Notes under the pieces: model-generated | Database searches by the model: none | What the model was told of the DNA's origin: nothing | What the model saw: the letters and a program-made list of their open reading frames with translations, nothing else | Made by a program: the position numbers and the translations under genes | From: Sedimenticola sp. | GTDB taxonomy: Bacteria; Pseudomonadota; Gammaproteobacteria; Chromatiales; Chromatiaceae | DNA length: 47,463 nucleotides | Assembly: GCA_027030425.1 (NCBI GenBank) | Contig: JALVEW010000015.1 | Location: 1-47,463 of the forward strand | Reading direction: 5' to 3' | Shown: piece after piece, positions 20,011-23,987 of the stretch | Layout: every line of letters begins with the position of its first letter | Numbering within the stretch: position 1 is the first letter of the stretch

Positions 20011-20853
20011 GTGTCAAATAACAGGGGTACACTTTATATAGTCGCTACGCCCATCGGCAACCTGGACGATATCAGCCTGCGTGCCATCCGTGTGCTGGGG
20101 GAAGTGGATCGTATTGCCGCGGAAGACACCAGGCGCAGCCGCCGTCTGTTGCAGCATCATGGCATAGACAGGCCCATGCTGGCCCTGCACGAGCACAACG
20201 AGCGTCGGGCGGTGAAGGGGGTGTTGCAGTTGCTGGAGCAGGGGCAGGATGTGGCTCTGATCTCCGATGCCGGCACGCCCCTGGTCAGTGATCCCGGTTT
20301 TCCCCTGGTGCGGGCCTGCCGTGAGGCAGGCATCAGGGTATCACCGCTGCCCGGCCCCAGCGCCGTCATTGCCGCCCTCAGTGTCTCGGGCCTGCCCGTG
20401 GACAGCTTCTGTTTTCACGGTTTCCTGCCGCGCAGCCCCGGTCCCCGGCGGGAGCGGCTGCAGGCCCTGGCGGCGGAGCCTTCCACCCAGGTGTTCTACG
20501 AATCTTCTCACCGCATCCTCCATGCTCTGCGCGACATGGTGGAGGTGCTGGGCGCCGGGCGGGAGGTCTGCGTGGCCAGGGAGCTGACCAAGCAGTATGA
20601 GGATGTCATGCAGGGCCCTCTGGCCGAGGTGCTGGCTATGGTGGAGGCGGACGACATGCGCCAGCGTGGAGAATTCGTGGTGATCCTGGCCGGCGTGCCG
20701 GAGCGTGACGGGAATCTTCCCTCGGCGGAAGCCATGCGGGTGCTGGATGTCCTTCTCGAGGAGCTGCCTTTGAAGCAGGCATCGGCCCTGGCGGCGCGCA
20801 TCACGGGAGAGAAAAAGAACCTGCTGTACAAGCTGGCCCTGGAAAAACGCTGA
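20011..20853 (+). CDS. rsmI: 16S rRNA (cytidine1402-2'-O)-methyltransferase RsmI
   Basis: This is a 280-residue tetrapyrrole-methylase-fold enzyme. I chose GTG at 20011 because GGAGG lies five bases before it; ATG at 19996 in the same frame would add five residues but has no binding site. Landmarks are LYIVATPIGNLDDISLRA at the N-terminus, EDTRRSRRLLQHHGI near 40, ISDAGTPLVSDPG near 80, and SPLPGPSAVIAALSVSGLP near 110, the SAM pocket. RsmI methylates the ribose of C1402 in 16S rRNA, together with RsmH (encoded at 24685), which methylates the N4 of the same base. It is divergent from lpoA, about 55 bp away. Confidence 0.96.
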   Translation: MSNNRGTLYIVATPIGNLDDISLRAIRVLGEVDRIAAEDTRRSRRLLQHHGIDRPMLALHEHNERRAVKGVLQLLEQGQDVALISDAGTPLVSDPGFPLVRACREAGIRVSPLPGPSAVIAALSVSGLPVDSFCFHGFLPRSPGPRRERLQALAAEPSTQVFYESSHRILHALRDMVEVLGAGREVCVARELTKQYEDVMQGPLAEVLAMVEADDMRQRGEFVVILAGVPERDGNLPSAEAMRVLDVLLEELPLKQASALAARITGEKKNLLYKLALEKR

Positions 20854-20975
20854 GTTCCGGCCCCTCGCTGTGCCGCGCACGGGACGTGGAAAAACGGTGT
20901 TTCAAACAGAAATGCGAGAATCGTTGAAAACGGATTGCTTGACGGTCTCGATATTTGGCTGGAGGAGATCATTTG

Positions 20976-23519
20976 ATGATGTCGATATTGATGCCCCGGG
21001 TTCTGTCATACTTATTAACCCGGCAACCAAATATATCGTCCTCAGCCGCCCTGTCCGCGCGGGTGGCAAGGCATCAACGCGCCGCTGTAGCCCCCCTACA
21101 GCAAGTGTTGATAACGCAGTCCACCCGCGCGGACAGGGCGGCCTTCCTTTTTGTTTTCAATTTGTTAGGTGCTTCAAACAGGGCGCCTCTCTGCGTTGCG
21201 GCTTTTGACAAGGGCTTGCCATTGCCTGCAAGCCGCGCCTTGATACGCGCCCTGTTTGAAGCACTGAGGGCGACATATTTGGTCGCCGGGTTAATAGTGT
21301 TTGTCATCTTCCCCGCATTCTCCGGCGAGGGGATGGCGGCCTCTCTGACAAACCTTCAAGCTGCTGTTGTGCACCCCCTTTCCCCGTCATTGCGCTGGCA
21401 GTCCACCAATCCCGGCGGAGGGGGAGCGTTCAATGCCATTGGCGCCGGTCCCACGGGCATCATCCTGGTGGGTAGCGACCTCAGCGGGGCTTACCGTTCC
21501 CTGGATGGCGGTCGGACCTGGGATGTCATCGGCGCTTCCCGAGGCCTGACCGTAACCCATGTCAGCGGGCTGGGGTTCGACCCCCTTGATCCGCAAATCC
21601 TTTACCTGGGCACGGAAAACGGTGTTTTCCGCAGTACCGATGCCGGGGCGTCGTTCGTTCCGGTATTGAGCCATGGTTACATCACGGATATCAAAATCGC
21701 ATACAGCAATCCCAATGTGGGCTATATGGCTCATCACTCACAGTACGATGTTGCCGACGGAACAATCTACAAGACCACCGACCGTGGTAAGAGCTGGTGG
21801 AGAGTCAGCAACAGCACCCTGCCCAACGGCCTCCATATCCTCAAACTGGCCGTGGATTGGAGAGATGAAGAATCGCTCTACCTTTTGGCCGGGGAGGGGC
21901 GTTTCGCCTGCGGCCCGGCCATGCTCTATCAGAGTGCCGACGGGGGCAAGACCTGGAAGCGCATCGCCGCCAAACTGGGGCAGATTGCCGATATGGCTCT
22001 GGCTCCCAACGACCCCGACAGGCTTTATGTCACCACCTACGGTGATGTCTGGGATTCCGGCTACCGGTGCATAACCGACGATCCTGATGGAGGATATCTC
22101 TACGAGGGGCGTTTCAACGGCGCCTGGGAATGGATGCGATTGACCGGCGAGAACGATCTGGGGAGCCGCAACCTTCTGGTCTGGCCCGATGCCGATGATC
22201 AGCACGCCCTTCGCGTGATCGACATGGACTATCCCGAAATCTGGGAGACTGTTGACGGCGGCGCCAACTGGCGACAGCTCGGCAGCAAGGCAGATTGGAA
22301 TCCTGGCTGGGCGAGTGTGGATTCCGCCTACGGCACCAGTTTCAACGGTGACGCCAAGACCCTGGGCATGGATCTCTCCGATCCCGATGCCCTGCTGTGG
22401 GTTGATTCCCAGTTTGTCTGGGTTACCCGTGACGACGGACGATCCTTTGAACCCTTGTACTCCGACGAACTTGCCCCCGGCCGTTGGCGGTCGCGGGGGG
22501 TGGACAATATCGTGCCCTTTGGACTGGCTCTCAATGCCGACTCGAGCCATGTCTATCTGGCCATGCCGGATTTGGGCTGCTTTCGTAGCGATGACGGGGG
22601 CAATACCTGGCAGAACTGCAATGATGCGCGCTACGTAGGGAGCTGGAATGGTGACGGCGGCAACAGCATGACAGTTGCCGCCGACCCGACACGGCCGAAC
22701 GTGGTCTGGATCACCCAAGCTGAAGAGATAGACAGCCCCCACACCCTGCTGCGCAGCGATGATTACGGCATCAGCTGGAAGCCGGCCAATACCGGCTTGC
22801 CTGATGGTATTCCTTCCGGCTTGAGCGTTGATCCCCATAGCCCGGAGGGAGCGCGCACCTTGTTTATCACTGTTGATGGCGATGTGTACCGCAGCCGGGA
22901 CGACGGACAGCATTGGGACTTGGTGTTGGATTGCAACGGCTGCCGCCACATCGCCGTGGATGCCCATGATGGGCGCCTGGTCTACGCCGGGGGGGAAGCG
23001 GGGTTTTGGCGTTCCACGGATGGCGGGGATTCGGGCACCTGGGAGCAAACCGGCTTGCCGGAAATGACAGGCGCTCTGGGAGATGAGTTCTGGGATGCCT
23101 ATTGGGAAGGCGTGGCCGCCATCCAGCCCGATCCTTTCCATGCGGATTGGGTCTATGTGGCGGTTTTCGGCGAGGGGCGGGGCTTGTATCGCAGCAAGGA
23201 CGCCGGTCGGAACTGGGAACATCTGCTGACCGATGACTACCTGCGCGACATGGCTGTCTCACCCATCGATCCCGACCTGCTCTTTGCCGCCTCCAGCAGC
23301 GCGCTTTACTCCGGTGGTTATGCCCCGGCGTCACGTGGCGTCGTCACCAGCTCTGATGGAGGCAGGACCTGGTCCTCGTTCAATGACGGGCTGTCCTGGC
23401 CTTTCGCCAGCCTGTTGGTAATGGAGTCCAGGCCTCCGTACATGCTCTGGCTTGGCTCCCCCGGGACGGGTTATTACCAGCGCATGCATGCCCGCAGAAA
23501 GGCGATAATACAGGAATAG
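20976..23519 (+). CDS. Secreted Asp-box (BNR repeat) beta-propeller protein, signal peptide interrupted by a mobile element
   Basis: The 847-codon frame opens at ATG 20976, with a strong GGAGGAG eight bases upstream. At least eleven Asp-box repeats of the S-x-D-x-G-x-T-W type are spread over the protein (such as YRSLDGGRTW, FRSTDAGASF, YKTTDRGKSW, YQSADGGKTW, WETVDGGANW, FRSDDGGNTW, YRSRDDGQHW, YRSKDAGRNW, TSSDGGRTW). This matches the two stacked propellers of the sortilin/Vps10, xyloglucanase and photosystem-II-assembly-like proteins. Ligand or catalytic activity is unknown. Codons 14-107 are contributed by a palindromic element; without it the N-terminus is a normal signal peptide (MMSILMPRVLSYL-VFVIFPAF). 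An internal TTG at 21240 could restart a signal peptide (IRALFEALRATYLVAGLIVFV). The gene separates rsmI from rnpB, neighbours in Pseudomonas-type genomes. Confidence 0.8.
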   Translation: MMSILMPRVLSYLLTRQPNISSSAALSARVARHQRAAVAPLQQVLITQSTRADRAAFLFVFNLLGASNRAPLCVAAFDKGLPLPASRALIRALFEALRATYLVAGLIVFVIFPAFSGEGMAASLTNLQAAVVHPLSPSLRWQSTNPGGGGAFNAIGAGPTGIILVGSDLSGAYRSLDGGRTWDVIGASRGLTVTHVSGLGFDPLDPQILYLGTENGVFRSTDAGASFVPVLSHGYITDIKIAYSNPNVGYMAHHSQYDVADGTIYKTTDRGKSWWRVSNSTLPNGLHILKLAVDWRDEESLYLLAGEGRFACGPAMLYQSADGGKTWKRIAAKLGQIADMALAPNDPDRLYVTTYGDVWDSGYRCITDDPDGGYLYEGRFNGAWEWMRLTGENDLGSRNLLVWPDADDQHALRVIDMDYPEIWETVDGGANWRQLGSKADWNPGWASVDSAYGTSFNGDAKTLGMDLSDPDALLWVDSQFVWVTRDDGRSFEPLYSDELAPGRWRSRGVDNIVPFGLALNADSSHVYLAMPDLGCFRSDDGGNTWQNCNDARYVGSWNGDGGNSMTVAADPTRPNVVWITQAEEIDSPHTLLRSDDYGISWKPANTGLPDGIPSGLSVDPHSPEGARTLFITVDGDVYRSRDDGQHWDLVLDCNGCRHIAVDAHDGRLVYAGGEAGFWRSTDGGDSGTWEQTGLPEMTGALGDEFWDAYWEGVAAIQPDPFHADWVYVAVFGEGRGLYRSKDAGRNWEHLLTDDYLRDMAVSPIDPDLLFAASSSALYSGGYAPASRGVVTSSDGGRTWSSFNDGLSWPFASLLVMESRPPYMLWLGSPGTGYYQRMHARRKAIIQE
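21015..21294. mobile_element. 280-bp nested palindromic MITE-like element with TA target duplication
   Basis: The terminal inverted repeats 21015-21045 and 21264-21294 match at 28 of 31 positions and begin TTAACCCGGC. TA lies at 21013-21014 and 21295-21296, as expected for TA-targeting (Tc1/mariner/IS630-type) mobility. Inside are a perfect 22-bp inverted repeat (21045-21066 / 21121-21142) with nested ATCAAC/GTTGAT and GCTGTAG/CTACAGC hairpins, and a perfect 18-bp inverted repeat (21169-21186 / 21247-21264) with GCGGCTT/AAGCCGC inside. The whole folds as a three-way junction. It encodes no transposase. Net gain is 282 bp, a multiple of three, and no stop codon occurs in the frame of the host gene. 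Confidence 0.75.
21045..21157 (+). terminator. Possible terminator inside the palindromic element
   Basis: The 22-bp GC-rich perfect stem of the element (ending 21142) is followed on the plus strand by CTTCCTTTTTGTTTTC, the pattern of an intrinsic terminator. Its loop is long (54 nt) but contains further hairpins. It would lie within the 5' coding part of the Asp-box gene. Confidence 0.4.
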
Positions 23520-23590
23520 GCATGGGAACCCGGCTTTTCGACCGCTTGTGTGATTGGATTGCCTGGTCCCGGATCTTGCTTGAAAGATAC

Positions 23591-23619
23591 TTGCAATCTC
23601 CCCCTGTTGCCTATATTTT
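23591..23619 (+). promoter_or_regulatory. rnpB: Promoter of rnpB
   Basis: TTGCAA (23591-23596), a 17-bp spacer and TATTTT (23614-23619) place transcription start at about 23627, the first base of the RNase P P1 stem. Confidence 0.6.
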
Positions 23620-23626
23620 CCATGAC

Positions 23627-23987
23627 GGGAAGACGGTCGGATAGTCGCTGTTGCTTGTCAACGGAGGAAAGTCCGGGCTCCACAGGGCAGGTCGCCAGGT
23701 AACGCCTGGGAGGCGCGAGCCTACGGAAAGTGCCACAGAAAATATACCGCCTGTCATGATCTTGACAGGTAAGGGTGAAAAGGTGCGGTAAGAGCGCACC
23801 GCGCTGCCGGTAACGGCAGTGGCAGGGTAAACCCCGACCGGAGCAAGACCAAATAGGGAAGCATTGCCGTTGCCCGCGGCCGCTTCCGGGTAGGTTGCTT
23901 GAGGCGTCCGGTGACGGGCGTCCCAGATGAATGACTATCACGGCAGTTTCGGCTGCTGACAGAACCCGGCTTACAGACCGTCTTCCC
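23627..23987 (+). ncRNA. rnpB: RNase P RNA, bacterial type A
   Basis: About 361 nt of the catalytic RNA that matures tRNA 5' ends. The 5' and 3' ends pair as P1 (GGGAAGACGGTC at 23627-23638 with GACCGTCTTCCC at 23976-23987). The universally conserved core GGAGGAAAGTCCGGGCTCC begins near 23663, ACAGGGCAGGTCGCC follows near 23682, and the 3' conserved CAGAACCCGGCTTACAG ends near 23976. The region TAAACCCCGACCGGAGCAAGACCAAATAG near 23828 is the J11/12-P4 proximal core. A T-rich tract follows P1 and ends transcription. It lies directly upstream of mraZ, as in Pseudomonas. Confidence 0.97.

Follow-up and report, generated by a model that had tools for sequence, protein, structure and literature searches.

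How is a gene to be read that carries a long palindrome, open in frame, within its first codons? The question arises in a window of 47,463 nucleotides from Sedimenticola sp. (by window we mean this whole stretch of DNA). Here the reading frame of an Asp-box protein is interrupted near its start by an imperfect palindrome of 284 bp with TA at both borders (21013-21296). An initial annotation had described a palindromic, TA-flanked element inserted in frame and had seen in it an unusual route to gene modification. The description was confirmed by our analysis; the interpretation requires a longer discussion.

The Asp-box protein is probably secreted, judging from its N-terminus. Deletion of the element together with one TA removes 282 bp and, as annotated, restores a signal-peptide-like N-terminus in which MMSILMPRVLSYL is followed by VFVIFPAFSGEGMAA; the removal joins MMSILMPRVLSYL to VFVIFPAFSGEG. 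The 94 codons that the element adds contain no stop in the host frame, again as annotated. Searches for orthologues of the gene gave two weak relatives in genome contigs and none in viral contigs, and the protein had no match among solved structures. It lies between rsmI and the RNase P RNA gene rnpB (window 20853-23629). The rsmI-rnpB interval of the congener G001 holds a different gene (EAL-like by eye) with GGGGTCGGAGTCAAATC repeats on both sides, and that of G004 and G007 contains almost no sequence.

The outer arms of the palindrome (21013-21045 and 21264-21296) comprise 33 nt including the TAs and are 91% complementary. Excluding the TAs from the arms gives the terminal inverted repeats of 31 nt with 28 of 31 positions identical that had been annotated. 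Between the arms lie two hairpins, A and B, separated by a spacer (Table 1), an inner architecture absent from the annotation. RNA folding of the element gave z = -14.7 for the plus strand and z = -17.3 for the minus strand, and none of 200 shuffled sequences was as stable on either strand. The palindrome is thus far beyond chance. Short, bounded by terminal inverted repeats and devoid of a transposase gene, for which 284 bp would not suffice, the element has the general features of a MITE.

Table 1. Features of the element and of its host gene (positions in the window)
Feature	Position	Strand	Basis or remark
Shine-Dalgarno-like run GGAGGAG preceding ATG 20976	20961..20967	+	
Host ORF: Asp-box / Sortilin-Vps10-like (BNR) protein, interrupted in frame after codon 13	20976..23519	+	
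Left TA, putative target-site duplication	21013..21014	.	single TA in the empty site of another copy
Left terminal inverted repeat, starting TTAACCCGGC	21015..21045	+	same first bases on the intact IS630 of G342
Hairpin A, conserved core	21045..21142	+	folding, alignment, covariation
CAAGGC, 5' side of the internal loop of hairpin A	21067..21072	+	(nearly) invariant columns in alignments A2 and A3
AACGC, 3' side of the internal loop of hairpin A	21113..21117	+	(nearly) invariant columns in alignments A2 and A3
A/T-rich spacer containing GTTAGG	21143..21168	+	shorter in five outgroup copies
Hairpin B, conserved core; layout approximately the reverse complement of hairpin A	21169..21264	+	folding, covariation
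GCGTTG, one side of the conserved internal loop of hairpin B	21193..21198	+	alignment
GCCTTG, other side of the loop of hairpin B; includes TTG 21240	21237..21242	+	alignment
Right terminal inverted repeat	21264..21294	-	arm pairing
Right TA, putative target-site duplication	21295..21296	.	sequence

Further copies, for which a BLASTN-type search had been proposed, were found both in the same genome and in congeners. Contig C231 of the same genome (G000) carries an identical copy (284/284); a 98% copy lies on C157, C145 bears a variant of 365 bp, and a partial copy stands at the end of contig C271. A TA-bounded palindrome of 37 bp made up of the two ends of the element alone is present at C99/C23 (L018:1492-1528, L019:67-103); these two loci look like overlapping contig ends. 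Within the genus, DNA matches to the element, some of them weak, occurred in 12 of 15 genomes and the end pattern with at most two mismatches in 9 of 15. G007, which is assembled into 3 contigs, contained 16 paired elements, of which 14 measured 283-286 bp and 2 measured 133 bp, and 5 unpaired ends, as counted by hand from the end-pattern matches. Altogether 67 loci yielded 55 bounded elements: 39 have 280-286 bp, 11 are shorter (83-233 bp) and 5 are longer (318-370 bp). On G007:C1 there is in addition a second subfamily of 285-286 bp with the ends TATTAACCCGGCGACCAAGTA and several near-identical copies, which seem to stem from a separate burst of recent date. The identical copy on C231 sits at the 3' end of an ORF (L001:1480-1520; DnaJ-like by eye); with the TAA stop that the first bases of this copy provide, the protein would have RGFY as its last residues.

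The best view of an insertion event comes from the copy on contig C115 of G001. All nine aligned genomes lack the element at this site, and in six of them (G000, G003, G004, G006, G007 and G009; not G008, G012 and G013) a single TA lies exactly at the junction, which supports insertion at TA with duplication of the TA. At the site of the C231 copy (L001) the element is missing from G003, G004 and G007, yet the junction has no clean TA. Four of the six queried insertion sites gave no match across the junction among the matches listed; the query for the L018 site, displaced two bases leftward, gave no match across the junction. None of the 14 congeners carries the Asp-box gene, and for this reason no empty site can be demonstrated for the window copy. 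The comparison with an empty site that had been suggested therefore succeeded for the C115 copy and not for the copy under study, and it is through the former that several copies, a target-site duplication and an empty site come together as in a typical MITE. The element is mobile, and its description as a non-autonomous, TA-flanked element inserted in frame is supported by the other copies and by the empty site of one of them. BLASTN of the window element against plasmids found no match, BLASTN of two outgroup copies gave one partial Azotobacter match apiece, and phage records searched with one core contained none.

A candidate for the mover is suggested by the ends. The TTAACCCGGC ends are those of an intact IS630 element in another family, and those of the two IS630 genes of the genus differ by at most one base. 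The intact IS630 has a length of 1,093 bp, resides in G342 and carries TATTAACCCGGC at both ends; its first 12 bases are identical to those of the element at both ends, and 15 are identical at the right end of the element. IS630 elements of Azotobacter and Pelobacter plasmids have related ends. Genes of the DDE_3 (IS630) type were detected in 2 of the 15 genus genomes, G003 and G001, and both proteins are classified as IS630 transposases by NCBIfam (NF033545). Both genes stop just before a right end of the MITE type (...GCCGGGTTAATA or ...GCCAGGTTAATA), and they look truncated because no matching left end was found for either. The element thus joins ends that match IS630 to a TA target, as would be expected of an IS630-mobilised element. 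A DDE_3 match was found neither in the genome of the window nor in G007, which is 100% complete, and 18 of 26 tested genomes carrying the core had none; the putative mover is absent from most carriers examined. Conversely, G342 was not among the core matches listed, and three tested IS630 loci showed no match to the core.

It is the interior of the element that proved to be conserved. The alignment comprised 29 of the 39 full-length copies and omitted ten that were close to rows already in it. RNAalifold predicted 102 pairs, 67 of them with changes on both sides; such counts do not represent independent events because the rows share ancestry and themselves supplied the structure. In this structure 96.7% of cells were paired, compared with 80.3% in shuffled alignments and 33-41% in slid structures, and none of 500 shuffles reached any of five covariation measures. 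The CAAGGC and AACGC loops are nearly fixed, and the helices that flank them vary. Both hairpins show covariation, and both contain an internal loop that is conserved.

The departures by wobble pairs are distributed unequally over the structure. Hairpin A has 17 G-U against 8 A-C pair columns and hairpin B 7 G-U against 18 A-C (one invariant U-G column was omitted), while the outer stem is even (11 against 12). The difference between hairpins A and B gave a Fisher p of 0.01, and of 0.005 on a set of 26 rows. According to this asymmetry selection seems to act on each hairpin as a single strand, read from its own end towards the interior; we regard it as a lead and not as proof because the columns share ancestry and the test was picked after the counts had been seen. 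A model of the core matched both strands over almost the full length in 26 of 30 loci, from which it follows that the core is nearly two-fold symmetric. A search of the whole window against Rfam identified RNase P only. With looser thresholds the element and six further loci gave no more than microRNA or viral-promoter matches below gathering (best E 3e-4), so the element did not reach the gathering score of any known Rfam family.

The same core is also found between different ends. Starting from weak DNA matches, we reached five loci, located in four genomes from other genera, that share the layout but have different ends. A covariance model (R1) was built from an alignment of 26 rows, namely 21 of the 29 copies, the window copy among them, and the five outgroup loci. 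At E <= 1e-6 it matched 114 of 369 genomes of the class and 85 of 398 genomes of the phylum, 47 of the latter inside the class and 38 outside by hand count; in these scans E-values are rough, filters were strict, few candidates were scored per genome, the two samples overlap, and the genomes that supplied training rows match by construction. A sequence-only model found a match of E <= 1e-6 in all 53 loci given to it. These were 53 of 59 loci (L205, L209, L215, L286, L288 and L296 were left out), chosen by R1 except for one (L225) chosen by BLASTN; in view of this choice and of the omitted loci the result establishes shared sequence beyond mere palindromy and does not serve as an independent count. 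Of the 54 loci examined, which comprise all 29 class loci and 25 of the 29 phylum loci, 42 have a core flanked by TA-bounded inverted repeats with at least 15 of 18 positions identical; among 63 shifted control windows there was no such case. Contig ends or a wrongly placed TA explain some of the 12 misses. Single linkage sorted the ends into 15 clusters, a rough number because some clusters merge visibly different ends and a few ends start at an inner TA. Named carriers include plasmids of Azotobacter chroococcum, Pseudomonas aeruginosa and Halomonas, identified by BLASTN and confirmed by R1. The core, which consists of two hairpins with the CAAGGC/AACGC-type loop whatever the ends may be, is common to elements with many different TA-flanked ends in Pseudomonadota, and the window element possesses it. 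In many of the cores found elsewhere (L280, L210, L213, L284 and others) the ends begin within CTAG, for example CTAGTGTCCCGTC and CTAGTACTCC. An IS630 partner for ends of the CTAG type was not detected in the genomes checked, partners for the other end classes were not found in the same genomes, and a search with one Azotobacter end matched itself alone.

It might be argued that the element is a protein-coding insert fit for exaptation, with an open frame that is maintained and a right end that rebuilds an export signal from TTG 21240. Of the 20 copies closest to that of the window, the 15 with a length of 284 bp indeed all have frame +0 open, wherever they are located. The other five have other lengths, indels and stops in this frame, and the G007 subfamily of 285-286 bp shifts it. 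At least one open frame occurred in 24% of 2,000 shuffles of the element. Third codon positions changed slightly more often than first and second ones (93 against 72 and 69), a bias that is not significant (p = 0.11) and that counts little either way because the copies are related. We reason that one in six intragenic landings, by phase and strand, would be open, because one of the six frames of the element is open; with this and with no clear codon bias, the proposed route to gene modification loses most of its force. A long ORF across the empty junction is absent in 31 of the 55 elements. Among the 24 that remain, including that of the window, ten of the other 23 crossing ORFs were read by eye, with no homology test, and none was a clear in-gene fusion; most appeared to be spurious antisense frames or to lie upstream of a start codon or between genes. 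The 55 elements screened and the ten ORFs read therefore gave no sign of a habit, as in elements of the RPE type, of inserting in frame and contributing a conserved peptide. As to the export signal, the annotated TTG 21240 is in frame, and the N-terminus that begins there has the most hydrophobic 12-mer on the Kyte-Doolittle (KD) scale, 2.91 compared with 2.37 for the empty gene and 1.41 for the first 45 residues from the ATG. By hydropathy an export signal starting at TTG 21240 is plausible. This much of the annotated rebuilding can be kept as a prediction; against it, the TTG is not preceded by a Shine-Dalgarno-like run, and it falls within the conserved loop of hairpin B. Moreover, the window copy is identical to another copy elsewhere, so there has been little time for selection on the fusion. 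We consider it very unlikely that the element is a coding insert. The evidence from the frame, the codon positions, the junction ORFs and the TTG favours a tolerated accident, and of the initial interpretation the mobile element is supported and the adaptation to modify genes is not.

If the frame does not account for the conservation of the interior, two further explanations have to be weighed. Quasi-palindrome correction can yield paired changes without selection, and the palindrome could be kept perfect by such templated repair at the DNA level, the core being functionless and no selection acting on a folded strand. Yet the mismatched internal loops have stayed mismatched and nearly invariant while the adjacent helices changed, and correction of double-stranded DNA would not be expected to distribute the wobble pairs unequally between the hairpins. 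Templated repair thus appears unlikely, if somewhat less so than a coding insert. The other possibility is that the core might act as a structured RNA in host transcripts, as an RNase III/RNase E site, a terminator or an insulator, and might be kept as it lowers or exploits the effect on neighbouring genes. The very stable fold of both strands, the near-symmetry of the core (both strands matched in 26 of 30 loci) and the 31 of 55 elements with no long ORF across the junction would agree with such a role, and NEMIS and ERIC offer precedents in the part of PMC2229807 available to us. The persistence of the core with different ends also fits a role in transposition. We therefore regard the structured RNA as possible, with the chances against it.

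In our opinion it is highly probable that the element is a recent non-autonomous MITE of the IS630 type, that it is in frame by chance and that its interior is a conserved three-way-junction core. The element would have transposed recently by means of a transposase of the Tc1/mariner superfamily provided in trans, which would recognise the TTAACCCGGC ends, insert at TA and duplicate the TA. It would have landed 13 codons into the Asp-box gene in the sole open combination of six choices of phase and orientation, and the resulting in-frame fusion is most likely a tolerated chance. What is conserved is the interior rather than the ORF, a three-way junction formed by the paired ends and the two hairpins with their CAAGGC/AACGC-type loop. 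The likeliest mechanism, and an inferred step, is that the core serves as a cis-acting single-stranded fold which helps spread or persistence. Several observations sit less easily with this explanation. Of the 55 elements 11 are short (83-233 bp) and an end-to-end palindrome of 37 bp exists, which argues against a role for the core in spread. The clean empty site belongs to another copy. DDE_3 matches are lacking in G000, in G007 and in the 18 of 26 core-bearing genomes mentioned above, G342 with its intact IS630 is outside the core matches listed, the three tested IS630 loci have no core, and for ends of the CTAG type no partner was detected in the genomes checked. A bolder and rather doubtful extension would make the core an ancient module, a satellite that moves about among Pseudomonadota and swaps its terminal repeats to suit the resident TA-inserting (IS630-like) transposase, with the two hairpins as a required single-stranded cofactor (RNA or ssDNA) that is read from either end towards the interior.

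Bacterial MITEs are generally regarded as decayed insertion sequences, with the ends as their defining feature. In the present group it is the interior that is conserved; its fold is kept by compensatory changes and the ends differ between groups. If the core helps spread or tolerance, it would provide a direct experimental handle on why some MITEs succeed. A covariance model is now available for a repeat present in about one fifth to one third of the sampled genomes (85/398 and 114/369), and the striking gene fusion of the window becomes probably an ordinary recent insertion.

How does the element compare with known systems? A description of the core was not found in the literature searched, mostly without subscription papers, including the accessible parts of PMC2229807, PMC10969869 and PMC5896051; nor was it described in the parts seen of the accounts of MITEPsy1 and MITEPsy2 (PMC3189936) and of the Thiomargarita MITEs (PMC4853749). 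The window element is a member of a structured-core group that was not found described in this literature. With IS630 itself it shares the first 12 bases of both ends, as seen in G342, and the TA flanks; IS630 differs in carrying a transposase gene, and the three loci tested had no core match. In-frame fusions of MITEs are known from RPE, ERIC and a 107-bp Neisseria element, according to the sections consulted of PMC2229807 and PMC10969869. The Rickettsia palindromic elements (RPE) are likewise palindromic and in frame within protein genes, but as far as these sections go they measure about 105-150 bp, are often intragenic and have a conserved peptide, whereas our elements include a single clear intragenic case, show no clear coding signature and have ends of the TA/IS630 type. 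Small palindromic MITEs are also represented by ERIC/IRU and Correia/NEMIS, some of them fused in frame, with folding transcripts (PMC2229807, in part). They are 107-155 bp long, the two-hairpin CAAGGC/AACGC core is not mentioned in that part, and the comparison is one of descriptions. QMITE1 of Coxiella burnetii, another gammaproteobacterial element, resembles ours in its length of 300-400 bp, its predicted folding energy of about -193 kcal/mol and its overlap with ORFs; it has variable direct repeats of 2-3 nt and a potential IHF site (PMC5896051, in part). A relation between the two is possible, and they are set apart here by description only. RUP of Streptococcus pneumoniae is an IS630-linked MITE thought to be mobilised by IS630-Spn1, and like the window element it is a short non-autonomous repeat with a TA target and IS630-like ends. 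In the text available of PMC2229807, RUP has 107 bp and no further structure or function signature is reported, whereas the element described here has 284 bp and a covarying core of three arms.
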